A stretch of DNA of 64,000 nucleotides, from positions 33,657-97,656 of the IMG/VR virus record IMGVR_UViG_3300035701_000010; one strand, given 5' to 3'. Each line of letters opens with the position of its first letter. Position 1 is the stretch's first letter. The position numbers were made by a program, and so were the translations under genes. Below are positions 4,694-64,000 of the stretch, one piece after another. The notes beneath the pieces were generated by a model. It was not told the DNA's origin. It saw only the letters and a program-made list of their open reading frames with translations, and made no database searches. This DNA comes from a virus.

Positions 4694-5168
4694 TTTCGTT
4701 CTCCTGGGTTACTGGCTTTTCCATTAATAAGATTTCTTCATCTCCTTTCAGTTTGCCATAAAAACTCACTCTCCATCCGCTATCATAAAGAACTAGAATC
4801 TTACTCACTTCTATTTCAGATCCAACAAACTTTTTAACCTTCCAACGAACTTTTTTGTCTATGTGCGATTTAACAACACTATGAGCAATCGATTCTATCA
4901 TGGAGAATAACTGGTTGGTTGCTTTGTTCATAATGTCGTCATGAACTTGCTGCATCATTGCGTCAAGAGCTTTCAAAGCAGTTCTTTTTAATTTCTTTTC
5001 AATGAATTCTGTCATAGCGGCTCTGATCTTTTCGTCAAGAGATTGATTATCTGCTTCTAGTTGAAGAATTCTTGCTTTGGCTGTTTTTAGTCTCGTTGAA
5101 AGAGTTTCAATTTGACCTTCAAGGTCTGTTTTAACGGCTTCTAGTTCTTTTGCTTTGACCAGTAACAT
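4662..5168 (-). CDS. coiled-coil protein, 168 aa
   Basis: Residues 1-60 form a strong predicted coiled coil (ELEAVKTDLEGQIETLSTRL), residues 60-115 are helical, and the C-terminus is more beta-like (YDSGWRVSFYGKL). GAGGAGG precedes the start at 5168. The start overlaps the sigma-like gene by 38 bases, so both are probably coupled. Role unknown; oligomeric by inference. Confidence 0.8.
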   Translation of the reverse strand: MLLVKAKELEAVKTDLEGQIETLSTRLKTAKARILQLEADNQSLDEKIRAAMTEFIEKKLKRTALKALDAMMQQVHDDIMNKATNQLFSMIESIAHSVVKSHIDKKVRWKVKKFVGSEIEVSKILVLYDSGWRVSFYGKLKGDEEILLMEKPVTQENENGKPKREPRS

Positions 5169-6000
5169 AAATAGTTCCCTCCTCAGACATTTGAATTCCT
5201 GTTTGGATGATTGTGTGTTCTATGATTTTAAACGCTTGGTTAATCACTCGTTTGTCTACTTTAAAATAAGTCGCCATAGCTCCTATGGTTGGTGTAACTA
5301 GAAATGGTCTCCTTGAATCATAAGACTGGTTAGCCTTCCTTGCTCTGCATCTAAAATCAAACATAATTATTTCTTCAAAGCGACTGTTGGTTTTATATAG
5401 AGTATCGAAAACTTTTCTTACGAAACTTCTTTTTCTTCTAATAAATCCAGTAGGTGTGTAGCGACTCGCGTCAAGTTTCTTCTTTACTCTTTTAAGGAGT
5501 TGCGAATATGAAAGTTTGAATTCAGGATTTTCTATATGAGAATCTTGAATTACGTCTTGAAGAAAATAGGATGAATTCGGTTGCTCTAAATCTACCCTAT
5601 CATTAAAAATACCAGATCCTTCATTTGCATCAGGTCTAACTCCTTTCCAGAAGAACCCAAAATTCGTTTCAAAAATTGACCGGACTGGAAAAACTTTATT
5701 ATCTATCTTTGGGATTTTGTCTCCTGTAGTTAAATGAGAGCGTTGATTAATAAAAAAGTTCTTAGCGATTTTCTTGATAAAGGTGGCTAAGCTGCTTACT
5801 TCCGGGTTATAGCTGGGAAGATTATTTAGCAGCTTAATTCTTAAATCTTGACATAAATCATCAGTTTCTATAGAGTAATCGAAAAAGAATGATGTAACCC
5901 ATTTGGAACAAATACTTTCTATTAAAGGATTGTATTGGATAAGAAGTTGTTTGACCGAAACCCGTTTGAGTTTTCCATTTTCTCTGATCAGTAATTTCAT
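5131..6000 (-). CDS. sigma-70-like RNA polymerase sigma factor, 289 aa
   Basis: Residues 25-90 match sigma region 2 of ECF-type factors: an NPLIESIC helix, then ETDDLCQDLRIKLLNNLPSY, PEVSSLATFIKKIAKNFFIN. A C-terminal part (about 235-275) could serve as region 4: TIGAMATYFKVDKRVINQAF resembles an HTH. The 150 residues between are unfamiliar. Such a factor would direct host RNA polymerase to phage promoters, perhaps the virion genes. GGAG precedes the start. The region-2 match is fairly clear; the region-4 match is weaker, and the promoter target is unknown. Confidence 0.7.
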   Translation of the reverse strand: MKLLIRENGKLKRVSVKQLLIQYNPLIESICSKWVTSFFFDYSIETDDLCQDLRIKLLNNLPSYNPEVSSLATFIKKIAKNFFINQRSHLTTGDKIPKIDNKVFPVRSIFETNFGFFWKGVRPDANEGSGIFNDRVDLEQPNSSYFLQDVIQDSHIENPEFKLSYSQLLKRVKKKLDASRYTPTGFIRRKRSFVRKVFDTLYKTNSRFEEIIMFDFRCRARKANQSYDSRRPFLVTPTIGAMATYFKVDKRVINQAFKIIEHTIIQTGIQMSEEGTIYVTGQSKRTRSR

Positions 6001-7581: not shown

Positions 7582-7797
7582 TTATTTTACAATAAACAAG
7601 TGTTTCACTGATCGAAGTAGATAGGTCGCTTTTGGATCATTTAGCTTCAAATCCATCGCTTTTAATCCTTGAGCAATAAGATCTTTCGTTTCTTCCATAG
7701 AAAGGTTATCACTAGATATAACCCAAAGATAATTTTCTTTGTCAACGAAGATCTTTACTTCGGCTATTGCTTCTGGAATGATTGCTTTGCTGCTCAT
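7582..7797 (-). CDS. hypothetical protein, 71 aa
   Basis: Start ATG overlaps the stop of the DNA ligase gene (ATGA), with GGTGAG upstream inside the ligase frame. Alternating strand and helix (VKIFVDKENYLWVISSDN). No family recognised; coupled to ligase expression. Confidence 0.7.
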   Translation of the reverse strand: MSSKAIIPEAIAEVKIFVDKENYLWVISSDNLSMEETKDLIAQGLKAMDLKLNDPKATYLLRSVKHLFIVK

Positions 7798-9647
7798 CCG
7801 CTCACCATTTTCATCAGCTGCTCTTCATTAATCATTTTAATTTTCAAGAACCTTGCTTTGGCGGCTTTTGACGAGATGCTATTTTGATCTGCAATCACTA
7901 GATAGTCTAGATTTCTAGAAACGCTCACAATTTTTCCGCCATTTTGTTCAACCAGTTTAATCAACTCTTCTCTTGGTCTCGAGGCGGCTCCAGTGAATTG
8001 AAAGGTTTTTCCTTTTAAGATGTTAGTCTTCTCTACTTCAAGAAATCTTAATCCTTTACCTTTGAGAAAGGTGTAAAGTTCGTTATAGTCTGGGATGTTG
8101 TCTATGAAAGCGGAAGCAACGCTTGGTCCTATTCCTTTAACGGCAATGAGTTTATTGAACATCTCATTGATTGGCATTGTGAACATTCTGCCGAATCCGT
8201 TGCGAGCTAAGGTGTCTACAATTATTTTAGCATTCTTGATGGCGATTCCAGGAATGCCAAAAGCGGCAAGAAGATTTTCTTCTGTGGTATTCAGAGTCTT
8301 CTTTCTTTCTTCTAAAATTTTATCTGCGGATATTTCTCCCAATCCAACAGCCTTTGCAATTTGTTCCTTAGTTAAATCATAGAAATCTTCAACTACTAGA
8401 ATATTAAGCTTTTCCAACGTTGGCGTTCGAATTCCTTCTGCTCCTAGAGTTCGGATAAAATACTCTACAAATGCGAGGGCTTGTCCTTTACAGGTCAATT
8501 GGGAGTTAGGGCATATTAAATCTACACCATCTTTCTTAAGAGTCTCTTGGCAGGATGGGCAATTGGTTGGTTGGTGAAGGACTTTGGCTTTTTTGACCAC
8601 GCCTGTGATATATGGAATGACATCGCCAGAACGAACAATACTGATCACCGCCCCCCTGTCAATCATTCGCTCTGCAAGCCATTGAGCATTGTGTCCGGTA
8701 GGGTGTTGAATTTCAACTCCTTGGGTTTCAATTGCATCCACATGGACGACAGGAACAACTCTTCCGGTGCGAGTAACATTCCATTCTATTTCTGTGACCT
8801 TTGTAGATATTGGAGCATCTGAAACTTTGAAGGCTACTTTGTTTTCAGGAATTTCAACATTCTCTCGTGGAGCATGGTCGGCCATAATGACCAATCCATC
8901 CATGTCATAAGTCAAATCGCCCTTGGTTTTAATTTTATTGACCCATTTTTCAATCAGCCGATCTGTTTGCGAGATTGTTTCTTTTAAGATTCTAAACCAA
9001 GGAGTGACTTTAAAGCCGAGGAGATTAATTTGGTTGATTCGATCAAATTGAGAGGGGATTTCTTGAGGCCATTCAATGAGTTCATGAAACCAAATAGAGA
9101 TTCGCTCCATGCCTTGAAGATCATCTCTATTCATGATTCCAGCAGCGGCATTTCTTTTTGTTTTATAGCCAACCGGAACAGTTCCGGTGATAATTGCTTC
9201 TCCTCGCATGGCCACTCTTCCAGATTCACGAATGCTCATGATGGGAGTTTTGGTGATGGCTTTGGCTTTCCATAAAAGGTCTTGCCCAATATGTCCATCC
9301 CCTCGGGTACAGAAGGTAGTTAACTTGCCCTTGTTCCATTCAGCGTAGATGGAAATACCATCCAGTTTGAAGGAAGCACAAAGGTCATCTTTTTGGTGGG
9401 CACGGAGCCACTTACCGGCGTCGGCTGGTCCAATTTTATTCAGGCTACCAAGAACATAGGGCAGATGAATTTTGGAGCGTTTTACGGGCGCACCTACTTT
9501 GGCAAGCAGTTGACTGTCTGGCTTCAGTTTCTTAAGCTTGTCTATCAATTGGTCGAACTCTTGGTCTGAAATTTCGGGCTGTTGGTTGTAATACAATTCT
9601 CTGTGATGGGTAATTCTTTCTTCTAGTTTGGCAATACGATCAACCAT
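7794..9647 (-). CDS. ligA: NAD-dependent DNA ligase
   Basis: Seals nicks using NAD+, completing lagging-strand synthesis and repair. The 617 residues follow the usual LigA order: Ia domain with HHRELYY and EISDQEFD (NMN binding), adenylation domain with KLDG (Lys94 is the AMP acceptor), OB fold, a Cys4 zinc finger near residues 367-393 (CPSC...C...C), helix-hairpin-helix repeats (GIPGIAIKNA, VKGIGPSVASAF) and a C-terminal BRCT domain from about 540 (GKTFQFTGAASRPREEL). It is slightly shorter than typical bacterial enzymes of about 670 residues. Nothing suggests inactivation. GGAGG precedes the start. Phages more often carry ATP ligases, so the NAD type is notable. Confidence 0.97.
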   Translation of the reverse strand: MVDRIAKLEERITHHRELYYNQQPEISDQEFDQLIDKLKKLKPDSQLLAKVGAPVKRSKIHLPYVLGSLNKIGPADAGKWLRAHQKDDLCASFKLDGISIYAEWNKGKLTTFCTRGDGHIGQDLLWKAKAITKTPIMSIRESGRVAMRGEAIITGTVPVGYKTKRNAAAGIMNRDDLQGMERISIWFHELIEWPQEIPSQFDRINQINLLGFKVTPWFRILKETISQTDRLIEKWVNKIKTKGDLTYDMDGLVIMADHAPRENVEIPENKVAFKVSDAPISTKVTEIEWNVTRTGRVVPVVHVDAIETQGVEIQHPTGHNAQWLAERMIDRGAVISIVRSGDVIPYITGVVKKAKVLHQPTNCPSCQETLKKDGVDLICPNSQLTCKGQALAFVEYFIRTLGAEGIRTPTLEKLNILVVEDFYDLTKEQIAKAVGLGEISADKILEERKKTLNTTEENLLAAFGIPGIAIKNAKIIVDTLARNGFGRMFTMPINEMFNKLIAVKGIGPSVASAFIDNIPDYNELYTFLKGKGLRFLEVEKTNILKGKTFQFTGAASRPREELIKLVEQNGGKIVSVSRNLDYLVIADQNSISSKAAKARFLKIKMINEEQLMKMVSG

Positions 9648-16112: not shown

Positions 16113-16300
16113 TATTCCTCCTTGGTGTTGAAACTCAAAAGGGTTTGTTCAGTCATTTCCATATCATCTACCTCTATTCCATCAATTGTTGAAATGAATC
16201 CGTAGTCCATCTCATTCACGCACTTGGTCAATTCTGTAACCGTTTTGGGTTCTTCATGTCTAAAACCGAGTTTGATTGTGACATAGACGGTTGATTTCAT
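16112..16300 (-). CDS. conserved small phage protein, 62 aa
   Basis: Pattern YVTIKLGFRHEEPKTVTELT, then NEMDYGF and an acidic D-E-x-T end, resembles a small protein shared by many phages, of unknown function, with a beta-alpha-beta layout. AAAGGAG precedes the start. Confidence 0.75.
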   Translation of the reverse strand: MKSTVYVTIKLGFRHEEPKTVTELTKCVNEMDYGFISTIDGIEVDDMEMTEQTLLSFNTKEE

Positions 16301-16605
16301 GCTTCTTCTCCTTTCTTTATTTGTTGGTCAATCTCAAAAATCAGATCTCTTAAATTCTTCATCGCCTTTTTCACAAAAAATGGAAATTTACTCCAACCGG
16401 AGTGGCAACAAGCTTCCCATAAAAGCATAGTCATTAAAAAGTAAGATTTAAAGATAGGATCTTTTCGTATCATCTTATTTAACAAGAAAAGATGATACGT
16501 TTCTTCAGGTTCCAGTTCTATATCTGGCATGTTAGAACTGATAAGATTTTCTACTCCTTCATAAGCTTCAATCGCTTCAATCAGTTGTTGTTGTGTCATT
16601 CCCAT
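16297..16605 (-). CDS. hypothetical helical protein, 102 aa
   Basis: All-helical with aromatic patches (FKSYFLMTMLLWEACCHSGW). Overlaps the next gene by 4 bases (ATGA type). An SD-like GGAGAAAG lies upstream; the second ATG at 16599 is an alternative start. No family recognised. Confidence 0.7.
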   Translation of the reverse strand: MGMTQQQLIEAIEAYEGVENLISSNMPDIELEPEETYHLFLLNKMIRKDPIFKSYFLMTMLLWEACCHSGWSKFPFFVKKAMKNLRDLIFEIDQQIKKGEEA

Positions 16606-37896: not shown

Positions 37897-38112
37897 CTAG
37901 TAACGATCTTGGGCATTTTCATATTCCTCAATAAGTTCTTGGGCCTTTCTAAAGAGACGTGGATATTTTTCTTCAAACCATCCAGTTTCAGATAAAAATA
38001 TAAGATAGTCCGTTGGAACATCTTCAATATATTCCCCATTGTATTTTCCAAAGGACATGATGAGTTTGCCACTTTTCAATTTATTGATATTTGTCTTGCC
38101 TATCTTTACCAT
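37897..38112 (-). CDS. DUF3820-family protein, 71 aa
   Basis: MSFGKYNGEYIEDVPTDYLI (from residue 19) matches the F-G-K-Y-x-G-x-x-x-x-D-x-P-x-D-Y-L motif of DUF3820, a small domain often found with or fused to 3'-5' exonucleases. Here it directly follows a 5'-3' exonuclease gene (stop and start overlap), fitting a DNA-metabolism role. The first 18 residues are extra; ATG at 38058 could be an alternative start. Confidence 0.8.
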   Translation of the reverse strand: MVKIGKTNINKLKSGKLIMSFGKYNGEYIEDVPTDYLIFLSETGWFEEKYPRLFRKAQELIEEYENAQDRY

Positions 38113-39035
38113 TTTATGATCCTTTGCAGTTCTTCTATTTGAAATTTATTTCTCTCACGAAGTTTAACAAGTTGAAGTTTATTGGTGCCTTTGAGCAGGC
38201 TATAGGCTTCTATATACCCTAAGATTTGTTCGAATGACAATTTTATTTTTGGAACAAATAGTTCCACTTTGGGGGGAGGGACAATGGTCGTTAAAAATTT
38301 TGATTCACTTATAGAACCATCATTTTTTGCGTTGATTAATTTTTGGGCGAGGGTTGGCCTTAGCTGGTCTAAATTGAAATAGACATTTCTTACTGTTTTA
38401 TAATGCGATATAAGATCGGATGCTTTTTTGGGTCCAATTCCTTTGACGCCTTGAATATTATCACTGGCGCACCCCATGATAATTTTCATTGCAGAAAACT
38501 GTTTTGGCGTGACTCCAAATTCCTTTTTTAAATCTTCTATGGAAAAATAAGTCAGTTCTGACCGTTTTAGCTTGCTATTAAAAACAGTATTGATCAGTTG
38601 GACATTGTTATCCAACAAGGCGTAGCAATCTCTATCATTTGTGTAAAAATGAATTTCACGATTATTATCGATTCTGTTAATAATATATGAAGCTACGTCT
38701 TCTCCTTCGTACGTTTTGGCGTATAGGGAAGGAATATTTAAGTTATAAAGAATGCCCTTAATCATTTCTCTTTCATTAGCCAACGATGGAATATCCTTTT
38801 TCCTTTTTTCTTTATAAGTCTGAATTTTATCTTTTTTGTAATAAGGTGGAGTATCCCATACGCAGATAATTGTTTTATATCCGTAGTCCGTTAACGAGAT
38901 CAATTCTCTAATGAATCCAAATATTGCACTTGTGATGATCTCTTCTCCATCTCTAACTACAGATAAATGGTTTTTGGCGAATGCAAAATAGGATTTATAA
39001 GATAGATAGGACGAGTCAATAATTGATATAGCCAT
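38106..39035 (-). CDS. 5'-3' exonuclease / flap endonuclease, 309 aa
   Basis: Removes RNA primers and flaps during phage DNA replication. FEN/PIN-like layout: IIDSSYLSY with Asp7, VWDTPPYYKKDKIQTYKEKR (arch start), YEGEDVASYI and YTNDRDCYALL (acidic metal ligands), then MGCASDNIQGVKGIGPKKAS, the helix-hairpin-helix that contacts DNA. Length is typical of phage and bacterial exonucleases. GGGAG lies 11 bases before the start at 39035. First leftward gene from the divergent region. Confidence 0.93.
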   Translation of the reverse strand: MAISIIDSSYLSYKSYFAFAKNHLSVVRDGEEIITSAIFGFIRELISLTDYGYKTIICVWDTPPYYKKDKIQTYKEKRKKDIPSLANEREMIKGILYNLNIPSLYAKTYEGEDVASYIINRIDNNREIHFYTNDRDCYALLDNNVQLINTVFNSKLKRSELTYFSIEDLKKEFGVTPKQFSAMKIIMGCASDNIQGVKGIGPKKASDLISHYKTVRNVYFNLDQLRPTLAQKLINAKNDGSISESKFLTTIVPPPKVELFVPKIKLSFEQILGYIEAYSLLKGTNKLQLVKLRERNKFQIEELQRIIKW

Positions 39036-46829: not shown

Positions 46830-48068
46830 ATGGACGCTTTGGTAAATAATCCTCTTCTACAGCCCCGATATTTGATGAAAGTGATCGACGATATACCAGC
46901 CCTCACAAATGTCTATCGTGGACAGGAAATGTTCCCACTTACAACTCAGCCCGGACCTCGGGTTGAATGGGATATCAGACGCCCTCTCGGTGGAATGACG
47001 CAAGCGGTGGCTCGTGGTGCTGAGTCTCCTGTTATCCATCGGAGGGGAGTCGGTCAGGCGGCATTTGAGCCTGCCCATTTCCGTGAAAAAGTAATTCTTG
47101 GCGAGTCTGATGTTACGACTCTTAGAAAACTCGGCACATGGGAACAGAGAGAAACCGCCGCTGAGATGATCGCAGGCATCATGCTCGATCTTAACTCTCG
47201 TCTCGAAACTCGTATTGAGTGGATGAGATGGCAGCCAGTGGTGAACAATGCTCTGACCATTAACGAAAACAAGGTTCAGTTTACCGTGAATTACAACATG
47301 CCCACAAGACAGAGGCCGACGGCTTCTCCGTTGTGGTCTGTGTACGCCACGGCTGATCCGATTAACGATATTCAGACATGGCTTCGGTTGGCCAGAGGGT
47401 CTGGTGGTGTTCCTAAGAAATTTTGGTTTAGCTCGTTGGTTGAGCTTCACCTGTTCAGGAATGCTAGAATTTTGAGTCTCATCGACCGTATTTTCCATTC
47501 TGCTAATGTGGGTTTGATTAGCAAGGAAATTTTGTCAACCATTATGAAAACCTACATCGGGAACTATGAGTATGAGGTTTACGATGCGGGTTATAATCTG
47601 ATCACCTATACGGCGGCTGCTCAAGCCGCTGGTGGGGTCACCACGTTGGCAGTGGACGACGCAACAGGGTATGCGACTGGCGATGTCGTTCAGATTTCAG
47701 CGGCCGATGAGAGTGCTGAGGAAAATATGACTGTCCTTAGCGTTTCTGGCAACACGATTAACTTTACGGGTTCGACGGTTACGGGCACCTATCCTGCCAA
47801 TAGTATGATCAGGTGTTACAAGACCTTCCTTCCTGACAATGTCTTCATCATCGAAATGTCATTTCCCGCTGGGTCTGGTACGGTGGGTGAGGTTATTAGC
47901 GTGGATGCGGTTTACGGGGCTGGAAATCTTATGAATCCAGTTCCTGGAAAATTTGCTGAAACGATTTTCCTCATGAAAGATCCTAAACAGATCGAGATCA
48001 TTTGCGGGATTAACGCTCTTCCTGTTCTTTATCGGAAGAGAGGGTTTGTAACAGCGACTATCGCGTAA
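46830..48068 (+). CDS. major capsid protein (lambda gpE family), 412 aa
   Basis: Builds the icosahedral shell. gpE-type signature: VYRGQEMFPLTTQPGPRVEW near the start, ETRIEWMRWQ, and FHSANVGLISKEILSTIMKT followed by YEVYDAGYN. Residues about 258-330 (TTLAVDDATGYATGDVVQIS, MTVLSVSGNTINFTGSTV) form an extra beta domain inserted before FLPDNVFIIEMS; such insertions protrude from the shell. TAGGAGG precedes the start. Confidence 0.88.
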   Translation: MDALVNNPLLQPRYLMKVIDDIPALTNVYRGQEMFPLTTQPGPRVEWDIRRPLGGMTQAVARGAESPVIHRRGVGQAAFEPAHFREKVILGESDVTTLRKLGTWEQRETAAEMIAGIMLDLNSRLETRIEWMRWQPVVNNALTINENKVQFTVNYNMPTRQRPTASPLWSVYATADPINDIQTWLRLARGSGGVPKKFWFSSLVELHLFRNARILSLIDRIFHSANVGLISKEILSTIMKTYIGNYEYEVYDAGYNLITYTAAAQAAGGVTTLAVDDATGYATGDVVQISAADESAEENMTVLSVSGNTINFTGSTVTGTYPANSMIRCYKTFLPDNVFIIEMSFPAGSGTVGEVISVDAVYGAGNLMNPVPGKFAETIFLMKDPKQIEIICGINALPVLYRKRGFVTATIA

Positions 48069-53490: not shown

Positions 53491-53745
53491 TAAAAGATGG
53501 AAACTCAAACAACATTCTTAATTGCGATTCTTTCTACCTGTCTTCTTTTAGACAGGAGGGCGTTGCAAGGGCTGGTGAGCTTATTCTGGTTTCCTTATCG
53601 GGTATGGCTAAAAGGGTTGGTACGGGCATTATTTCTTTTGTCGAAGATACAATTCTGTAGGTCTCGATGGGAGACTGGATACTTATATAAGCTGTATCTT
53701 AAAGCCGTATTACGGCTATTAAAAACGAAGGAGGTAGAAGAAGCG
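53491..53745 (+). other. intergenic, no convincing gene
   Basis: A frame from 53497 runs in phase into the next gene but has no SD, and its product (hydrophobic, then basic) is unlike the chaperone fold. AGCCGT/ACGGCT forms a small hairpin near 53703-53717. Confidence 0.55.
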
Positions 53746-54096
53746 ATGAAAGGAATTAGAACAGACAAACCAGTGGAGTATGTGTGCAAGTGCGATCGTG
53801 ACTTGCCAAAAGATTCTCAAACCATTTTCGTGGTGAAGCTTTTGACGCCAGAGGAACAAGCCAAGCATAGAGATCAAATGTATAGCGTCAAAGGGATTGG
53901 GGCACAGAGGAAAGAGCAATTTCTAACCGGCACCGTATCACTCGATGCGTTGAGAATGGGATTGAAGGGGTGGAAAAATTTCAAGTTCGAGGATGGAGAA
54001 GAAATTCAATTCAAGGATGAGAATCTTGCCTGTATCCCTTCAACGCAAAGAGATGAATTGGCCAATTACATCAGAGGGGCTGAAGAAGAGATTTAA
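53746..54096 (+). CDS. tail assembly chaperone-like protein 1, 116 aa
   Basis: Start at 53746 (MKGIRTDKPV) behind AGGAGG. Pattern VEYVCKCDRDLPKDSQTIFV, then VSLDALRMGLKGWKNFKF and RDELANYI recurs in the next gene. Tail assembly chaperones bind the tape measure and are normally encoded as a pair between tube and tape measure, as here. Confidence 0.7.
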   Translation: MKGIRTDKPVEYVCKCDRDLPKDSQTIFVVKLLTPEEQAKHRDQMYSVKGIGAQRKEQFLTGTVSLDALRMGLKGWKNFKFEDGEEIQFKDENLACIPSTQRDELANYIRGAEEEI

Positions 54097-54111: not shown

Positions 54112-54942
54112 ATGCAATACTCGATTATGGCGAGACTTGATCCTCGCAGCCGCTTGGAGTATGTCTGCGAAAGTGAAAGAGAATCTGAAGGCAAGACGAT
54201 TTTCTATCTTAAGCCTTTGTCGATTGCTGAGTATTTGAAATGTGAGTCGGTTGGAAGAGTACAGGCGGTTAAGGTTGGAACTTTCACTTTAAGAGCTCTT
54301 CAGTACGGATTGATCGGATGGGATAACTTCGCTGACGAAGAAGGCGGGGTTATCCCATTTGATTTGAAAAACATAAGCTATCTCCACCCTAACATTCAAA
54401 TTGAATTGGCTGAGGAGATTGTAAGAATAGCTGAACTTGAAGGAGAAATTGTAGAAGAATTGAAGTTAGTGGCTCGGTGGGGTGAATGGTTGGATAAAAA
54501 TGAAAACAGAAAACATCAATGGGAATGTGAATTTTGTTTAGAAAAGAAACTCTTTAAAAATAGAAATTGTGATGGAACCCTTCCAAACAAATGCAGCAAA
54601 TGTTCAAAAGAAACACTTGAAGATGAGTGTCCGATATGTGGCGTTAAAACCATTCCACAATTTAAATTTCGGTTCAGTTCTACGATTACAGATTGGGTGG
54701 CTCGATGTCCGGTTGCCATGTTAACGCCAAGAGCAATTCAGCTAACGAATATTGTTAATTTTACCGATAATGCCAAAGCCCTTCCGTTTCATTGTGGAGC
54801 ATTCGAACAAACCTATTTCTTTTATTTGATTCGTATGGTGGTATTGTCCGAACAGAATGCAATTCTTAAGAAAGAATTAGATCAGAAACCTGACTTTAAC
54901 CACATACAAAAAGAGAGCAAACGACATGGCCAAAGTAAATAA
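54112..54942 (+). CDS. tail assembly chaperone-like protein 2, 276 aa
   Basis: The first 110 residues are homologous to the previous gene (RLEYVCESERESEGKTIFYL, FTLRALQYGLIGWDNF). An added part has a zinc-ribbon cluster (CEFCLEKKL...CSKCSKETLEDECPICG, about 142-180) and a helical end. Same frame as the 116-aa gene, with a TAA and 15 bases between, so a longer fusion by stop readthrough is possible but unproven. No good SD; coupled start likely. Overlaps the tape measure by 17 bases. Confidence 0.65.
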   Translation: MQYSIMARLDPRSRLEYVCESERESEGKTIFYLKPLSIAEYLKCESVGRVQAVKVGTFTLRALQYGLIGWDNFADEEGGVIPFDLKNISYLHPNIQIELAEEIVRIAELEGEIVEELKLVARWGEWLDKNENRKHQWECEFCLEKKLFKNRNCDGTLPNKCSKCSKETLEDECPICGVKTIPQFKFRFSSTITDWVARCPVAMLTPRAIQLTNIVNFTDNAKALPFHCGAFEQTYFFYLIRMVVLSEQNAILKKELDQKPDFNHIQKESKRHGQSK

Positions 54943-57900
54943 AGAAATCAATTTTGTCATTAATGTGGCGTATGCGGCGCAAAAGCAAATGAAAAGCTTT
55001 ACGGATGACATTGACCGCATTAGTTTAGCTGTTCAACAAATTGACAAAATTGGTGGTAGAACAGGAGCGGATAATATCGCATTGGCTCAAGATGCTCTAA
55101 GTGGGTTTGTTAAAGAACTGAGCGAGTTAACAACGAAAAACTTTTATCAGGGTTTTGAAAATCTGGCTACTTCTCTTAGAGATATTAGACTAGCAACGCA
55201 ATCGGCTTCCGGTTCGATGCAAGAATTGCATGGCATGTTTTCAATTATGGGTAAAATTGGTGATCTATTTGAGGGAAAGATTGGGAGTATTTTTCGGGCG
55301 ACGGTTGCATTGAGAGAGTTTGCAAAGCAAGTAAGGCTAATAGGTCGTATTGAAGATGATAAATTAGAAGCCATCACATTACTTTTTGATCGAATTGCGC
55401 TTGCTTTAGGTAAATTGGGTTCTGGTAGTGTTCTTCCGCAAATTATGACAACCATTGGCAGTCAAGCGACTCAATTGAGTTCAGTCGCTGATGCTATTGA
55501 AAGGATCGCCAAGGCATTAACTCTTGAGGGAGTAAGACAAACGGCAGAGTCTATATCTAGAATTGGTCCTAATTTTCCTAAAGGGGTTCTTAGTGGAGCG
55601 CCGGTTGCTGGTGGGGGTGCTGGAACACCTGTCGTTGGGATAGGTCCTGCAGCGCAGGCCCCTGTCACAACTGGCGGAGGAATGGGAGAAACTGGAACAT
55701 TTGCGTATGATAAATATGCCGACTGGGGGGCAGCTTCTCCAGCAGGAAGTAAGGTTCTAGATAGTATCTTCAGTGGGCTACAGAAAGAGTTTGGAGGTCC
55801 AGGAGGCGCTAGTACCTTTGATGAAGATATTATTGATACGGTCATAAGTTCTATGAGAGGCCTTAATGCCAGGATAACAGATAAAAGAAAGGAAATCCTT
55901 GAACAAGGGTTGGTTGATAATACGGCAGTTATGGAAAGATTGAATTCGACTAAATTTAAAGGAGGAGTGGGAGCAACCGAAGCGACGACTATTGCCAAAT
56001 TAACAAGTGGAGCAGAATGGTCTGAAGATCTTGATCTTCCAAAAGAAATGAAAGCATTGTCTTTTGCTCGTGGGACTGCAATTCATTCTGGAATGGAGCA
56101 TGTGATTAAAAACGTAATTACGGCTAAAAATTCTATGGGCGAATTTTTACAGAAAAATTTATATATGAGTCCTGAATTTGCGAAGGGAGTAGAACAGGAA
56201 GCTATTTTTGCAGCTAATTCATTCAAAGTTCTAGTTGGGGAAGCTATTAAGAGATCAGAAACCGAAGGAACACCTATAACGATGACTAAGGAGTTGAGCG
56301 AACAAGTTAAGATTCAAGCCAACACGATTCAGAAAGCTCTTATGAACATGTTTTCCCCTAAGATGATGGAAAAAATGAAAAATGATATATCTGTATTAGC
56401 TGAAAGTAGGGGGAAGACATTGACAGAAGCCTTGCAAGCTATGACCATAGATGTAGAAAAGACGCTACAGCCACTTGTTCTTTTGGATCCTGGTATGGCA
56501 ATCCCTAAGGGAGCATCTCCAGAACAGAAAAAGTTGGTTGAAGATATGGTTGCTTTGTTAAAAGTCAAATATAAAGATGCAAACAGCAAACTTCAAAAAC
56601 TTTTTGATGAATGGAATCAAATGGGGCTTATTGTTTTTTCACAAGCTGATCTTGTGGCTCATTTTGGTGAAGACATTGGCAAAATAATTTGGGATCTTAA
56701 AACAGGAACCAAAAAAACTAAAGAAAGCGCTCAATATCAAAAAGTGCAGGGATCGATTTACCAATTGTCTGAAGCTCAGGGAACTAAGGGCGGCGTGGGT
56801 AACGTTCAATTTGAAACTATGAACCCCTTAGCTAGAGATGAAACGAATTTAATGCGAAAAGAAGGTCTTAGTGAAGAAGTTGTAAAAATGACAGAAGTCC
56901 AAGAATTAAATCAAAAGCTAATAGAAGTAGATAGACAACGGTTGACAGCAATTGACATGATGAATGTTGCACAAGAAAAATACATCAGAAAGGAAGAAGA
57001 AAATCTTAAATTAACTCAGGATCTTAAAAATACATCAAAATTTTTAGCCGAAACAGTTTATCAAAGAGATCTTCCGCAGTTGAGTGAGCCTCCTTCACCT
57101 CCAGCAAAAGGAGGAGGTGGGGGTGGGGCAGGAGGCGGAGGAGAAGGAAAAGGCAGTTTTGGTTTTTTTGGTCCTGTTGGGAATCTTGTTGAAAGAAGTG
57201 TAAAAGGATTAAATTTGGGCGGCGCACAAGGAGAGTTGGATGCGCTAACCATTGCGGTGAGTAAATATGACCAAGCCGTGACCGCTGCTTACTTGAAACA
57301 GAAAATGTTTAGCGAATCACTTGATCTTTCTATAGTTAGGTTTACAGAATATGGAAAGATCATGTCTTCTGCAGCTGACGTTTTTTCTAAATTTGTAAGT
57401 TATCAAAAAGTTGGAACCACTCAAGAAGAATTAGCAACTAATGAACTAACGAGAGGGTTCACGCTCCGTGCGGCAGCTTATGAAAAATTGATCAACGTGA
57501 TGAGGCAGTATGATACTAAAATGGAACAGAGTCGCAGCCATGAAATTGATTTGGCTGATTTAAGGCAGACGATTACAAGGCAATTAGAAAAGATTCGACC
57601 TGAAACAGCGGAGGCTTTAAAGCCGGTTCCGAAGGAACAGTTTGAAAAGCGTATCTTTTCTAAAGAATTTCAGACAGCAAAAAGTACGGGGACTATAGAT
57701 GCGGGAAGTACAGAAACAGAAACAAGTATGATTAAGAATGCTGAAGCGTATCAAGCTCAAAGAAAGGCAATTAAAGATCTTACAAGAGCTCATGCGGATT
57801 TTTCTACGGAATTAGTGAACGCAATTAATAAGCAGGGAACAGTAAGAGAAGATCTTAAAAGAACGATTGATGTTATTGCTTCTGGTGATGCAGGGTTGGC

Positions 57901-60900
57901 GGCATCTCGGGTTGGGATTACAACCACGGCGCAGGCGATTGAATGGCTTACGGAGGCATTGTCTAGAAATCAATTAAGACAGATGGATTCTATTGGTACT
58001 ATGGATAGAGTTAAGGGTGTTACAGAAAGAATGAATGCAACGATAACCGCTCTAGGAGTTAATGTTAAGGACCGTCAGTTACAATGGGGAAAGTTGTCAG
58101 AAAGTTTACAAGTTTATAACAATGTTCTTAAGACTGGGCAAACAGAACTGAACATGTATGGGGCCGGGATGACCGCCCATCTAAATAAACTTGTGGAAGT
58201 GACCCTTGCAATTAAAAAGAATGAAGAAGCTTTGGCGCTTAATGAAAAAGCGATGGCGGCTAACAATACGGCCACGACAAAAGATGTGAAATTAGAAACA
58301 GATCTTATAGCAGTAAATAAAGCGCTCAATGTGGAACTGACAAAGCAAGCTGCTCAAGTTGCTGAACTTGTGGCTGGGAGAGAAAAGATTAGCAAGGCTT
58401 CTAATGAAATGGCCAAGACAGTGAGTAGCGTTCGTGAAGGGCTAGGAGAACTTTCAAAAACAGAAAAGATGAAAATTGGGGATACGGCTGAAGCCTATCG
58501 TGGTTTTTTTAGAACAACGCTTCAAGGCTTCGCCAATATGATTCGTTCGCAAATTGCGTGGATTGCCGGTTACGCTTTGATGTTTGGAACAATGAGGGCG
58601 TTTAAAGAATCTCTTATGTCTGTGGTTACGATTCAACACGAATTTGCTCGAGCAATGAGAACGGCTCGGGATGATGCCCTGTCTACTTCTCAAATTTTGA
58701 CTATGTTTAAGACGGAAGGTGTTAGCGCAATGATTCAGTTTGGAGAATCCTCTAAGAAGGTTGGTGAAACTCTCTATCAACTGGGAAGTGCAGGGTTATC
58801 AGCTACTGAATCCGTAGCGGCTTTGAATACAACGATGAGAATGCTTGTGGCAACGGAGGAAGATGCTCAAGAAGGAGTGAAATTGGTGGCTTCGGTTTAC
58901 AATAACTTTAAGGATACGCTTAAAGGGTCAACCACTCAGGCTGAAAAATTTCAATGGATTAACGACATTATGGTGAATACGTTTGACCGTCACCAAGTAG
59001 AAATGAATGAATTGAGAGAAGGATATAAATATCTTTTAGCGATGGGAAAATTGACCAACCTTACTTTTACAGATATGTCTGGAATTTTGGCGGTATTGAA
59101 TGACAATTTGATTAAAGCGGGAGTGGCTGGTCGTTCGATGCAAAGTGTATTGTCCGAAATTGCACAGCAACCCTTAAAATTTGCGGAAATGTTTAATATT
59201 CCAATAAACCCTGAAGCGCCGTTAGATGTTCTTAAAATTCTTGAAGGTGTTAACGCACAGATGAATAATCAAAAACTTTCTGTTGACGAATTGTCTAGAG
59301 TATGGGAAACAATGGGGTTAAGAGGAGCAAGAACTTTTGTGATTTTGGCTCAGAACGTTGATAGATTAAAAGAGGTAATCGAACGGCTGGGCAAAACTTC
59401 GGTTGGAGCAAACGAAAGAATGTCAGACATTATGCTACAGAAGCCAGATGTGGCATTTAGGCGGTTAGGAGAGGCAGTAACCGCTCTTGTCAGAACGGGA
59501 TTTGAACCGCTAGTGACTGTTGGATATGGAGTGGCTTCAGTTCTTGGAGATATAGGAATGAAGGTTGCTGGAACACAAAGCGGTATTGTTTCGCTTAGCG
59601 GTTCAGTGTTGGGATGGGCCACAACCTTTATGGTATTAAAATCGGCAGTTGTTGGATTTGGATTGGTTAGAGCTCATTATTTCACTAAACTTTCTTCAGA
59701 TAAAGAATTAATAGATCAGATCAAATTCTCTGTGTGGAACTTTGCAAAGGCGTGGGTCTGGGCTGCTGCGGTGATTGGAGTTTCTATCAAAGATATAGTA
59801 GTTCAAGTTGGATTATTAATTAAAGCAATGAATTTTTCTGTAATTTTGCCTATGCTGAAGCAATTGAATTTTACTTCCGCAACTGCTTCTCTTACTCTTT
59901 TCATAACTTCTTTGAAAGCATTAAATTTTGCTGCGCTTACAGCTTCGTTAAAAAATGTGGTGACACAGATTAGTGCCATTGGAGTGGCGCTACTTGGAAG
60001 TGCTACCCTTTGGTGGTTATTGATTGCTGCAACGGCGGTATGGGGTGCCTATAAGATTTGGGATTCAATTCGTATGACCAATGAGAAATATATTAACTTG
60101 ACAGGAGCAATGGTTGAAAATAATAGAGCTGCTCTTGAAGAAATAGAATCACTAAAGGAGAGAATAGATAAATATGCCGAGATTGGTGAGTCGATGAAGG
60201 GTTTGCGCGAAAGTATGAATGTTCGCCTTAAATTTAAATTGAGTGCGGAAGTTAATAAGCTAGAAGAGGATTTTAAGAAAATACATGAGCCAGCGGCTAA
60301 ATTTACAGATGCGATAAAAGAGATGGCTGACAGTTATATCGATAACGTTGAGAATATGGCAGAAAGAACTGAAAAGGCAACGACTTCTATTTATGAGAAT
60401 ATGGCACAAGCGACCAAGTGGCTCGGTGGGGTTAATGTAAACGCTTTTGATTCAGAAAAGGACAAGAAGGCGATTGGACAATTTGGGCAGGATGTCTTTA
60501 AACAAGAGGATATTATAAGGAAACAGATTAAGCAATTGGAAGGTTTAAAGAAAGCAGGAGAAGGAGTTTTTAGTTCTGAAACGGTTGAAAAAATTGATAA
60601 GAAAATTTTACAATATACTGAAGATGTAGATAAGCTAACTGGAGCGACGCAAAGAGGACTTAATGCTATTGGTCAAGCCGTTTTTGAAGTTAAAAGAGCT
60701 TTTGATCCTAAAGAAACGTGGCATCAGGGAGCATTTTTAGAAGAAGTAACTAAGAAGAAAATAATTTCGGAACAAAGTGAATATATCCATTTATTGCACG
60801 AACAGGAGGAGTTAGATAAGAGAATTGTCAAAATGGCAAAACTGCGGGGTGAAGTTTCTGTTAATGAATTTAAAGACAAGGTGGCAACCCTTATACAAAG

Positions 60901-63900
60901 CAAGGATTTAAAGAAAATTGATCAAGAAGTTTTAACGGTCGTAGAACGGTGGCTGGAAATAGAGATTAGAAAAGGACATGCCATTAGAGAACAGCGAAGA
61001 GCAGCGGATGAACTTTCTCGTTCATATAGAAATCTCATGGACAGCATAGTTAGAGCAACTGAAGATCTAGTAATAAGCATGGCTGACTTAGGACCTCTTC
61101 AGAATATTCTAAAAGTTGATGAAAAAAATCAGAGAAAATTTGAAGAAATCAAAAAATCTGTTCAAGAGTTCATAGACAACGCAGACGTTGCACCTAAAGA
61201 TATCGTTGCGTTGTGGATGACAGACCAGGGAATTAGCACGGCGAATGAGGCTAGGAAAGCATTGGATGCGTATGCTGCTTCTTTCGAGCGAGTATCTAAG
61301 GTGCAAGCAGAATCGGCACGACGAAAAGCGTATTACGAGCAAATGGTACAAGTTCGAGAAGCTTTTGATAGTGTTAGTGATAGTATTAAAGATTTTATAG
61401 AACAAGCAAAAAAGGCATCTGGAGTGGATGAAGATTTAACAAGTACAATTAATGGGATTACTAAACAAACCAGAGATTACAAACAGGCTATCGCAGATTT
61501 GAATGAAAAGCTTGGCTATGCGGAAACGAATGACATAGAAAGCATCAATATCCATAAAGATAAAATTGCTGTGCAAAAAAATGCCATTGAACTCACTAAA
61601 CAGAATATTGCCGCAACACTCCAATCGATGCCTATTCAATTTCAAAGTGATGAATTAACCAAAAAAATGGCAGATGACTATACTGCTTTAAATAAAACTC
61701 TTAAATTTCATCAAGAAGAGTTAGAAAAAGTAACTAAGAATGAAGAAAAAGATTCGGTAGCTAGAGCAACAAATATTGCAGGAATAAAGGATCAAATTAG
61801 TTTTCAGGCGATGCTTTTGAAATCTTATATTGCTTGGGGTGAAGTTCAGAAACGAGTTGCCATGAACAAATACGCCTATACCATGATGAAGGCCAATAGA
61901 GATATAGAAGAAAGTAGGTCTGACAAGTTAGAAGAACTTGATTATCAAATGAATGAATACCACACTGTTGCACAAGAATCATATCATCAAACGTATGCGT
62001 TAAGCAAGCAAACGAGGGTTTATAGAGATGAAATAGAAGCGGTGACAGAGCAAATTAAGAATCAAGAATTGGTTTTACAAACGGCTAGAAGTCTTGGAGA
62101 TGACCATAACGAAACAATTGAAAAAAGCATTTCATTGTCTAAAAAGAAACAAAAAGCCTTGCAGGATGAATACGATTTATGGGTGCGTGTTCTTCCCGAA
62201 TTAAAAAGGCGTATTGACTTGGATACTAAAATTGCTAGTCTTCAACGAAGAGCTGAAATTTTAACGGAAGCTGGTGAAAAGAAACGAATAGGAGGAGGAA
62301 AAGATTACGAAGAACAAAGAGAGGCGACGCGATATTATAAAGAAGCATTGGATGAACGTCAAAAATTAGACTTAGCGGCTTTTGATAAAAAAATACAATT
62401 GGCGGAAGCCGAAGGATTTTCAACGAAAGAGTTGACTAAACAGAGAGAAGAGTTGCAAAAGGCTCATCTTGTAGCCCTGAAGCAATTCACGTTAACGAGT
62501 CATCAAGAAGAATTGCAAGCAATCAGAAATTCTTCTGCCTTGGAAGCTGAAATGATTGTAAGGACCGCTCAGACTGCTACCGAAACAATTACGGGGCTGA
62601 TGAAATCCGTGGTGGTGGGGCTGCAAGATTCGTATATTCAATACGAAGACATTTCCAAAAATATGGCTAGAATTGGGACTGACACATTTGAAACAGTTAC
62701 GGGCGCAATGACTTCGATGGTGGAAGCGTGGATTACAAATACTGAGAAAGGTTCTGAGAAATACAAAGCCATTATGCGGGATATGTTGAATACGATAGGG
62801 CGTGCCTTGGTTGATTACGCCTTTAAATTGATCATGATTCAAATTCTTCAAAAGGCGATAGGAATGGCCGTAAGTGCTGCAGGAGGTGCTGCAGGAGGTG
62901 CTAGTGCTGGAGCATCCGCTGGAACCATTATTGGAGGATCAGAAGGGACTTATCAGATGAGTACAATTGTCCCAGCGTTTAAGAAAGAGGGTGGCTTTCT
63001 TAAAGGTGGAATCAAAGGTAAAGACTCTATCCCAATCTTAGCTCAGGAGGGAGAGTTTATTATCCCAAAGCGAACAGTAGACAAATATGGGGTTGCCTTT
63101 TTTGAAAAGTTAAGAAGTCGGAAATATGCGGAGGGTGGAGTAGTTGATAAGAAAGATAAGGTAGCGTATAAGCGTGAAGTAAAGGATCAGGATAGAGAAC
63201 GTTTTAGAAAAGAGATTAGAAAAGAAGGCTTCATTATTCCAAAAATACTCAAAGAAAGATATGAGAAAAAGCTTATCAAGACAATAGAGAGGCAACAGAG
63301 GTTTGAGCGTGGCGGGCTTCTTAAGGAGAAGATCACGAATGAAATGGAGTTCCAAAAAGGCGGAGTGGTTAGAAGTCAGATTATTAACAACAACAGAGAA
63401 TTTCAGAAAGGCGGAGTAGTCAGAAGTCAGATAACGAATAACAACAGAGAGTTTCAAAAAGGCGGAGTAGTCAGAGAAAGAGTTGAGTCGAATAGGCAAG
63501 AGTTTAGACGTGGTGGTTCGGTTAAGAATAGTGAAATGAGAATGGAAAGAATTGAACTTGATCAATTAGAATTTCAAAAAGGTGGAATGGTTAGCAATCA
63601 GATTACGAACAACAACAGAGAGTTTCAGAAAGGTGGGATGATTAGAGAAATAAGTGATACCAGGAGGTATGAATTCACTAAAGGCGGATTAGTTAAAGAT
63701 AGAGAAAAAATTAGTGAAAAGGAAAGAGATAAAGATAAGGTCTTTGTTGAAGAAAAAGTTCATAAAAAAGAAGTGGCTATTCCAAAATTGGTGGCAAGAA
63801 GATTAGGTCCGGAATTGACTAGCATGTTGCGGAGGCAAAAGCATGAGCAAGGCGGACTGGTTACGATTGTTAAAGAATTTCAGAAAGGCGGAGTAGTCAG

Positions 63901-64000
63901 AGAAAGAGTTGAGTCGAATAACAGAGAATTTCAGAAAGGCGGAGTAGTCAGAGAAAGAGTTGAGTCGAATAACAGAGAATTTCAGAAAGGCGGAGTAGTC
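54926..64000 (+). CDS. tape measure protein with nuclease-like domain, 3' end cut by window
   Basis: At least 3,025 residues; sets tail length and passes into the host envelope. Layout: helical N-terminus (1-340); PD-(D/E)XK-like motifs (about 345-625); a GGGGGGAGGGG linker near 730; TP901-type tape-measure core (about 1200-1490) with hydrophobic MIRSQIAWIAGYALMFGTM; more hydrophobic helices near 1550 and 1690-1715; a long coiled-coil region; and GEFIIPKRTVDKYG (about 2709), the usual C-terminal tape-measure motif. After it comes a repeat array of FQKGG units that leaves the window. Start at 54926 (MAKVNKEINF) lies in the upstream gene; GAGAG lies 12 bases before. Confidence 0.92.
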   Translation, partial: MAKVNKEINFVINVAYAAQKQMKSFTDDIDRISLAVQQIDKIGGRTGADNIALAQDALSGFVKELSELTTKNFYQGFENLATSLRDIRLATQSASGSMQELHGMFSIMGKIGDLFEGKIGSIFRATVALREFAKQVRLIGRIEDDKLEAITLLFDRIALALGKLGSGSVLPQIMTTIGSQATQLSSVADAIERIAKALTLEGVRQTAESISRIGPNFPKGVLSGAPVAGGGAGTPVVGIGPAAQAPVTTGGGMGETGTFAYDKYADWGAASPAGSKVLDSIFSGLQKEFGGPGGASTFDEDIIDTVISSMRGLNARITDKRKEILEQGLVDNTAVMERLNSTKFKGGVGATEATTIAKLTSGAEWSEDLDLPKEMKALSFARGTAIHSGMEHVIKNVITAKNSMGEFLQKNLYMSPEFAKGVEQEAIFAANSFKVLVGEAIKRSETEGTPITMTKELSEQVKIQANTIQKALMNMFSPKMMEKMKNDISVLAESRGKTLTEALQAMTIDVEKTLQPLVLLDPGMAIPKGASPEQKKLVEDMVALLKVKYKDANSKLQKLFDEWNQMGLIVFSQADLVAHFGEDIGKIIWDLKTGTKKTKESAQYQKVQGSIYQLSEAQGTKGGVGNVQFETMNPLARDETNLMRKEGLSEEVVKMTEVQELNQKLIEVDRQRLTAIDMMNVAQEKYIRKEEENLKLTQDLKNTSKFLAETVYQRDLPQLSEPPSPPAKGGGGGGAGGGGEGKGSFGFFGPVGNLVERSVKGLNLGGAQGELDALTIAVSKYDQAVTAAYLKQKMFSESLDLSIVRFTEYGKIMSSAADVFSKFVSYQKVGTTQEELATNELTRGFTLRAAAYEKLINVMRQYDTKMEQSRSHEIDLADLRQTITRQLEKIRPETAEALKPVPKEQFEKRIFSKEFQTAKSTGTIDAGSTETETSMIKNAEAYQAQRKAIKDLTRAHADFSTELVNAINKQGTVREDLKRTIDVIASGDAGLAASRVGITTTAQAIEWLTEALSRNQLRQMDSIGTMDRVKGVTERMNATITALGVNVKDRQLQWGKLSESLQVYNNVLKTGQTELNMYGAGMTAHLNKLVEVTLAIKKNEEALALNEKAMAANNTATTKDVKLETDLIAVNKALNVELTKQAAQVAELVAGREKISKASNEMAKTVSSVREGLGELSKTEKMKIGDTAEAYRGFFRTTLQGFANMIRSQIAWIAGYALMFGTMRAFKESLMSVVTIQHEFARAMRTARDDALSTSQILTMFKTEGVSAMIQFGESSKKVGETLYQLGSAGLSATESVAALNTTMRMLVATEEDAQEGVKLVASVYNNFKDTLKGSTTQAEKFQWINDIMVNTFDRHQVEMNELREGYKYLLAMGKLTNLTFTDMSGILAVLNDNLIKAGVAGRSMQSVLSEIAQQPLKFAEMFNIPINPEAPLDVLKILEGVNAQMNNQKLSVDELSRVWETMGLRGARTFVILAQNVDRLKEVIERLGKTSVGANERMSDIMLQKPDVAFRRLGEAVTALVRTGFEPLVTVGYGVASVLGDIGMKVAGTQSGIVSLSGSVLGWATTFMVLKSAVVGFGLVRAHYFTKLSSDKELIDQIKFSVWNFAKAWVWAAAVIGVSIKDIVVQVGLLIKAMNFSVILPMLKQLNFTSATASLTLFITSLKALNFAALTASLKNVVTQISAIGVALLGSATLWWLLIAATAVWGAYKIWDSIRMTNEKYINLTGAMVENNRAALEEIESLKERIDKYAEIGESMKGLRESMNVRLKFKLSAEVNKLEEDFKKIHEPAAKFTDAIKEMADSYIDNVENMAERTEKATTSIYENMAQATKWLGGVNVNAFDSEKDKKAIGQFGQDVFKQEDIIRKQIKQLEGLKKAGEGVFSSETVEKIDKKILQYTEDVDKLTGATQRGLNAIGQAVFEVKRAFDPKETWHQGAFLEEVTKKKIISEQSEYIHLLHEQEELDKRIVKMAKLRGEVSVNEFKDKVATLIQSKDLKKIDQEVLTVVERWLEIEIRKGHAIREQRRAADELSRSYRNLMDSIVRATEDLVISMADLGPLQNILKVDEKNQRKFEEIKKSVQEFIDNADVAPKDIVALWMTDQGISTANEARKALDAYAASFERVSKVQAESARRKAYYEQMVQVREAFDSVSDSIKDFIEQAKKASGVDEDLTSTINGITKQTRDYKQAIADLNEKLGYAETNDIESINIHKDKIAVQKNAIELTKQNIAATLQSMPIQFQSDELTKKMADDYTALNKTLKFHQEELEKVTKNEEKDSVARATNIAGIKDQISFQAMLLKSYIAWGEVQKRVAMNKYAYTMMKANRDIEESRSDKLEELDYQMNEYHTVAQESYHQTYALSKQTRVYRDEIEAVTEQIKNQELVLQTARSLGDDHNETIEKSISLSKKKQKALQDEYDLWVRVLPELKRRIDLDTKIASLQRRAEILTEAGEKKRIGGGKDYEEQREATRYYKEALDERQKLDLAAFDKKIQLAEAEGFSTKELTKQREELQKAHLVALKQFTLTSHQEELQAIRNSSALEAEMIVRTAQTATETITGLMKSVVVGLQDSYIQYEDISKNMARIGTDTFETVTGAMTSMVEAWITNTEKGSEKYKAIMRDMLNTIGRALVDYAFKLIMIQILQKAIGMAVSAAGGAAGGASAGASAGTIIGGSEGTYQMSTIVPAFKKEGGFLKGGIKGKDSIPILAQEGEFIIPKRTVDKYGVAFFEKLRSRKYAEGGVVDKKDKVAYKREVKDQDRERFRKEIRKEGFIIPKILKERYEKKLIKTIERQQRFERGGLLKEKITNEMEFQKGGVVRSQIINNNREFQKGGVVRSQITNNNREFQKGGVVRERVESNRQEFRRGGSVKNSEMRMERIELDQLEFQKGGMVSNQITNNNREFQKGGMIREISDTRRYEFTKGGLVKDREKISEKERDKDKVFVEEKVHKKEVAIPKLVARRLGPELTSMLRRQKHEQGGLVTIVKEFQKGGVVRERVESNNREFQKGGVVRERVESNNREFQKGGVV
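55958..56800 (+). other. PD-(D/E)XK nuclease-like domain in the tape measure
   Basis: In the order typical of RecB/Cas4-type nucleases: GATEATTIAKL, then RGTAIHSGMEHVI (His387, Glu391), QADLVAHFGE (Asp575), IIWDLKTG (Asp590, Lys592), and AQYQKVQGSIYQ (Gln603, Tyr612). All core positions are present, with an insertion of about 150 residues between motif I and the rest. The match is by motif only. Confidence 0.7.
63341..64000 (+). repeat. C-terminal repeat array of the tape measure
   Basis: About a dozen units with EFQKGGVVR or variants (EFRRGGSV, EFTKGGLV, HEQGGLV). The last three copies in the window, starting 63875, 63926 and 63977, are near-identical 51-bp units (17 residues each). IPK-containing spacers before and within it (IIPKILKERY, AIPKLVARRLG) look like degenerate copies of the GEFIIPK motif. 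The array runs past the window end. Confidence 0.9.

Follow-up and report, generated by a model that had tools for sequence, protein, structure and literature searches.

Can the tape-measure protein of a tailed phage carry a nuclease? Tape measures are known to act as rulers of the tail, to form membrane channels and to carry enzymes that act on the cell wall. In this work we have analysed a window of 64,000 nucleotides (bases 33657-97656 of the 97.7-kb virus record IMGVR_UViG_3300035701_000010), for which a first-pass annotation had proposed RecB/Cas4-type nuclease motifs inside the tape-measure protein encoded at the right end. Profile matches, a conserved active site and the predicted fold of a homologue bear this proposal out. 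On balance we think it probable that the tape measures of this clade, whose members are uncultured tailed phages, hold an autonomous, catalytically competent RecB-family PD-(D/E)XK nuclease, which would be built into the virion near the head and delivered when the genome enters the cell.

The nuclease domain and its relatives

The reading frame that contains the domain encodes a genuine tape-measure protein: it matches the expected families (PhageMin_Tail with E=1.2e-18 over residues 1269-1423, and PHROG tape-measure families with E=9e-17 and, for others, more weakly), the protein is very long and helical, and the gene has its place in a tail operon after genes in the position of tail assembly chaperones. 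When residues 291-690 were searched alone, they matched Pfam PDDEXK_1 (PF12705) with E=3.1e-5 and 24.5 bits, the cut-off being 22, and the phage exonuclease family phrog_69 with E=3e-4. We regard the window copy by itself as a borderline PDDEXK_1 match, and it is the homologues which appear to carry the case.

How could such homologues be reached? Querying the window domain directly against the viral_contigs collection, the phages collection (tblastn) and solved structures (as a single sequence) returned nothing, and nothing was found with the conserved tape-measure core in viral_contigs. The direct domain searches were empty because the region evolves too fast, and the major head protein was used instead to reach relatives. 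Looking for other tape measures with the domain, as the first-pass annotation had suggested, proved fruitful by this route: six further, independently assembled tape measures carry it at the same place (L003/L009, L004, L006/L007, L017, L018 and L019), close relative pairs having identical sequences. The domain is present in every relative whose head protein is at least ~65% identical to that of the window and whose record includes a tape measure. Searched against genome_contigs, the head protein found distant prophages only. A route through relatives of the terminase, which covered 50 records (mostly at <=40% identity, some of them short fragments) and had no positive control of its own, the same type of search having worked elsewhere, yielded no further domain, and nothing noteworthy emerged when the phage collection was searched with the domains of three homologues. 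We also observed a contrast in evolutionary rate: the head proteins of the domain-bearing relatives are 65-82% identical, whereas the nuclease regions of the same phages are ~20-25% identical.

Pairwise identity in the alignment of the seven nuclease domains is 17-31%, and 11 of its 244 ungapped columns are invariant, namely (in window numbering) Gly383, Thr384, His387, Phe433, Leu503, Glu511, Gly567, Asp575, Asp590, Lys592 and Gln608. Judged from the sequences, every metal-binding or catalytic position of the RecB family is among them. The first-pass annotation had correctly placed His387/Glu391, Asp575 and Asp590-x-Lys592, while its Gln603 must give way to Gln608, which forms motif IV with Tyr612. 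His387, Asp575, Asp590, Lys592 and Gln608 all fall among the invariant columns (hypergeometric ~7e-8), as do four of the six residues as originally annotated (~3e-5); both figures take the columns as equal and independent and are a rough guide. When four members were used to build a model, the remaining three were recovered with E=3e-29, 1e-19 and 1e-12, and the reading frames are uninterrupted in all seven divergent records. PDDEXK_1 matches five of the seven members on their own (best E=1.5e-6; in one homologue the scores are 28.8 and 24.1 bits), and the phage exonuclease families phrog_69 and phrog_298 each match four. In the complete 2480-residue protein of G001, PDDEXK_1 and PhageMin_Tail both exceed their cut-offs in one chain; taken with the five matching members, this excludes a gene-fusion artefact.

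Is the domain of the Cas4 type? All seven nuclease domains contain zero cysteines, so that the four 4Fe-4S-binding cysteines of the Cas4/AddB/Dna2 iron-sulphur (Fe-S) nucleases were found in none of them. Because cysteine is absent, the domain is no Fe-S Cas4; the original label holds at the level of the RecB/Cas4 superfamily, and its "Cas4-type" is too narrow. In these phage records, several of which are fragments, the tape-measure nuclease is the sole PDDEXK_1 match above the cut-off. A second, weak match (E=0.012, below the cut-off) was seen in the G002 record (L128) at 16292-16432, in a 379-residue frame away from the tape measure.

Predicted fold and active site

With the G001 homologue as target and the seven aligned sequences, AlphaFold2 gave a model with a predicted local distance difference test score (pLDDT) of 80.1 and a predicted template modelling score (pTM) of 0.77. 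Its elements follow one another as helix 30-53 (with His44), strand 164-177 (Glu168), strand 226-237 (Asp233), strand 244-250 (Asp248 and Lys250), helix 259-276 (Gln264) and strand 283-289, which is, as modelled, the order of the alpha-beta3-alpha-beta PD-(D/E)XK core. The histidine lies on helix A, the aspartate on strand 2, Asp-x-Lys on strand 3 and the glutamine on helix B, and this occupation of the expected elements supports the predicted active-site geometry. Both the mixed beta-sheet core and the single site on which the first-pass annotation had staked its reading thus appear in the homologue model, the latter as judged by the placement of the motif residues.

The structures closest to the G001 model are those of known RecB-type enzymes, with VIA-align Z scores of 12.3 for Dna2, 11.4 for ACE1 (Cas4-like), 10.8 for AddB, 10.5 for AdnA, 8.7 for RecB, 8.6 for MGME1, 7.8 for RecE and 7.3 for Cas4. 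The first 36 rows are all RecB-superfamily or Cas4/DinG-type nucleases (Z 12.3 to 6.5), and the first unrelated row stands at 6.0. Among predicted viral structures (BFVD) the named top matches are phage PD-(D/E)XK nucleases, with a best E of 2e-4 for a named and 4e-5 for an unnamed protein, and a sequence-profile search of solved structures placed MGME1 first (E=0.006). The domain shares with RecB-family domains (PDDEXK_1 PF12705; Dna2, AddB/AdnA/RecB, MGME1) the motifs GTxxHxxxE, Asp, DxKTG and QxxxY, the core and the best fold matches (Z 8 to 12), but it differs from them in sitting in a predicted virion protein, with no helicase in the same chain and no cysteines, and in the long helical insert that separates motif I from strand 1. 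To the phage Cas4-like/RecB-like exonucleases (phrog_69, phrog_298) and Cas4 it is linked by weak profile matches and by its BFVD neighbours; those exonucleases, however, are stand-alone proteins of ~200-500 residues, and Cas4 has the four Fe-S cysteines that are missing here.

PDDEXK_1 was not listed when the whole 3025-residue window protein was scanned, and in a six-frame search it reached 18.7 bits, below the cut-off. That the window copy barely passes the Pfam cut-off as a fragment would suit a chance motif match, or an assembly which fused two genes. We find this scarcely credible: it is refuted by the seven open frames in divergent records, the recovery of held-out members by profile, the conservation of the active site and the predicted fold. 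Several results weigh against an active nuclease that is delivered with the genome. AlphaFold2 performed poorly on the window's own sequence (four aligned sequences, pLDDT 45), and the good model was obtained for a homologue that is 24% identical. On its own, Foldseek found nothing in the PDB under E=0.001, its top matches being the same enzymes with E of 0.015 and up. A folded domain of ~300 residues would be tight for the tail channel of a siphophage; it may be unfolded, cleaved off or located at the neck. Lastly, the glutamate of motif I is absent from L017 and L018. Could the domain be a dead nuclease fold, serving as a DNA-binding or structural plug which holds the DNA end in the neck? 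The loss of this glutamate in two of the seven members and the replacement of KTG by KSS in L017 would agree with such a role, but a plug would not need the histidine, both aspartates, the lysine and the motif IV glutamine to stay invariant at 17-31% identity, and we consider it quite improbable. The activity of L017 and L018 is possibly altered. At motif III, L017 reads DIKSS where the other members have DxKTG, KTA or KAG.

The module within the tape measure and the genome

The nuclease is flanked on both sides by glycine-rich linkers in the window protein (Table 1), and most homologues show a similar arrangement. Apart from the nuclease, few columns are invariant in the N-terminal 1100 residues, and conservation resumes at the PhageMin core. 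The homologous tape measures are 2450-2717 residues long, and all have hydrophobic, probably membrane-spanning segments around residues 1400-1700 (Kyte-Doolittle). Two outgroup tape measures, L021 and L027, whose head proteins are ~36% identical, match PhageMin_Tail and have neither a PDDEXK_1 match nor the glycine linkers. They share the region after the second linker (E=3e-26 and 1e-19) and have ~300 fewer residues ahead of it. Since linkers and nuclease are lacking in the outgroups, one clade either gained the module or retained it, and its sequence context fits a former separate gene.

It might also be asked if the module is a mobile or selfish insertion, such as an intein or a homing-type nuclease, which landed in the tape-measure gene by chance. 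Homing genes are common in phages, and the absence of the module from the outgroups would accord with an arrival of this kind. However, it sits in frame and with linkers at one and the same place in each of the seven lineages, no allele without it was seen inside the clade, the Pfam scans gave no intein or homing family match, and the domain is of the RecB type rather than the homing type. On account of the constant place and the lack of a family match we rejected an insertion, which we hold to be very improbable.

Table 1. Positions in the window of the tape-measure gene, its nuclease module and associated features (residue numbers refer to the window's tape-measure protein)
Feature	Position	Strand	Basis or remark
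RecB-family PD-(D/E)XK nuclease domain, residues 345-655	55958..56890	+	Profile match, conserved motifs, predicted fold of a homologue
Motif I, RGTAIHSGME	56069..56098	+	Gly383-Thr384 and His387 invariant in 7/7 tape measures; Glu391 in 5/7
Glu511, predicted strand 1	56456..56458	+	Invariant
Motif II, Asp575	56648..56650	+	Invariant
Motif III, Asp590-x-Lys592 (in IIWDLKTG)	56693..56701	+	Invariant
Motif IV, Gln608 ... Tyr612, QGSIY	56747..56761	+	Gln608 invariant
Tape-measure protein gene	54926..64000	+	3025 codons visible, frame interrupted by the record end; PhageMin_Tail and PHROG tape-measure matches
Glycine-rich linker before the nuclease module, residues 214-257	55565..55696	+	Similar linkers in homologues
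Glycine-rich linker after the nuclease module, residues 713-762	57062..57211	+	
Conserved tape-measure core (PhageMin_Tail), residues 1269-1423	58730..59194	+	
Hydrophobic, probably membrane-spanning segments, residues 1611-1706	59756..60043	+	Kyte-Doolittle scan
Major head protein	46830..48068	+	phrog_29, E=4.5e-41; used for finding relatives
Small gene upstream of the tape measure, tail assembly chaperone position	53497..54096	+	Position only; no family match
Second gene in tail assembly chaperone position, CxxC pairs	54112..54942	+	Position and sequence; no family match above the cut-off

The right part of the window is a head-and-tail operon with genes for the small and large terminase subunits, portal, head maturation protease, major head protein and tail protein, followed by two small genes in chaperone position and then by the tape-measure frame. 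The CxxC pairs of the second small gene, directly upstream of the tape measure, are zinc-ribbon-like and unusual for this position. The visible end of the tape measure (window 63386-64000) consists of imperfect repeats (EFQKGGVVRERVESNNR and its variants), none of which occur at the C-termini of G001-G005; the record ends inside these repeats, and perhaps they are the cause. On the minus strand, the window also encodes a sigma-70 region 2 protein (5134-6000), a NAD-dependent DNA ligase with BRCT (7797-9647) and a 5'-3' exonuclease (38109-39035).

A possible role in genome delivery

What might a nuclease do in a tape measure? In structures of lambda and JBD30 the C-terminus of the tape measure lies in the tail tip, and a trimer is shown or suggested (PMC10721106, PMC11445458). 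The tape measure leaves the tail ahead of the DNA and gets as far as the inner membrane (PMC11445458, PMC13190303), where it meets partners at injection (PMC13190303). The analysis shows the domain, its in-frame fusion to the tape measure, the conservation of the active site and the predicted fold; catalysis, position in the virion, delivery and substrate of the nuclease are the parts of our reading that we infer. Because the siphophage tape-measure C-terminus sits in the tail tip and the nuclease is near the N-terminus, the nuclease would be head-proximal, tethered by the linkers between a helical N-terminal part and the core of the tape measure, and would lie beside the end of the packaged DNA which leaves first. 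On ejection it would be the last of the tape-measure segments to exit the tail, just ahead of the DNA or with it, and would then work on DNA either at the membrane of the host or inside the cytoplasm. RecB-family enzymes mostly act on DNA ends or single strands, and these would be its most likely targets. It would either trim the incoming phage end, or attack host or rival DNA at the entry site. We lean towards action at the stage of delivery, taken as a whole. More tentatively, we propose as a possibility that an active RecB-type nuclease travels with the leading end of the genome and shapes this end against host defences which recognise ends, or attacks resident DNA at entry.

Could the nuclease serve assembly and not infection, by trimming or sensing the DNA end at the head-tail junction, or after being cleaved free once the tail is complete? 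Its N-terminal, hence head-proximal, place (orientation from PMC10721106, PMC11445458), linkers suited to cleavage or to a hinge, and the tight fit of a folded domain in the tail channel are all consistent with this. However, the genomes of tailed phages are cut by terminase, an ordinary terminase is present here, and so no assembly step obviously needs a nuclease. Siphophage tails assemble separately from DNA-filled heads, and this too speaks against a role in assembly, which we think unlikely.

The nuclease has several partial counterparts. Tme of the Streptomyces contractile injection systems is a tape-measure-related protein of a tail-like machine with a fused DNA-cutting domain whose nuclease activity has been demonstrated (PMC11126660). 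However, the domain of Tme is of the EndA type (DRGH, H-N-N), lies at the C-terminus and belongs to a non-phage injection system, whereas here a PD-(D/E)XK domain lies near the N-terminus of a phage tape measure. No EndA-like nuclease match was found with Pfam in the three complete homologues, and, unlike the setting of Tme, the phage studied here has terminase, portal and head genes. T5 pb2 is a phage tape measure with a fused enzyme acting at entry, but that enzyme is a muralytic metallopeptidase which lies close to the C-terminus and is released by cleavage at a mapped site, and pb2 has no nuclease (PMC10038345). SNIPE, a host nuclease, acts at the point where tape measure and phage DNA pass through the inner membrane; it is a defence protein that binds the tape measure, whereas here the phage's own tape measure carries the nuclease (PMC13190303). 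Tape measures fused to enzymes (T5 pb2) and a tape-measure-related nuclease effector (Tme) are thus already known. The first-pass annotation knew of no described example of a nuclease of this kind, and we likewise found no description of a phage tape measure with a PD-(D/E)XK nuclease in the literature searched, which mostly excluded subscription journals and preprints.

If our reading is true, an active nuclease in the part of the tape measure nearest to the DNA would make DNA processing a further step of genome delivery. It would also mirror SNIPE, which binds the tape measure and in this way attacks DNA at the same site. The conservation of the predicted active site throughout the clade suggests that the activity is under selection and is not an accident.
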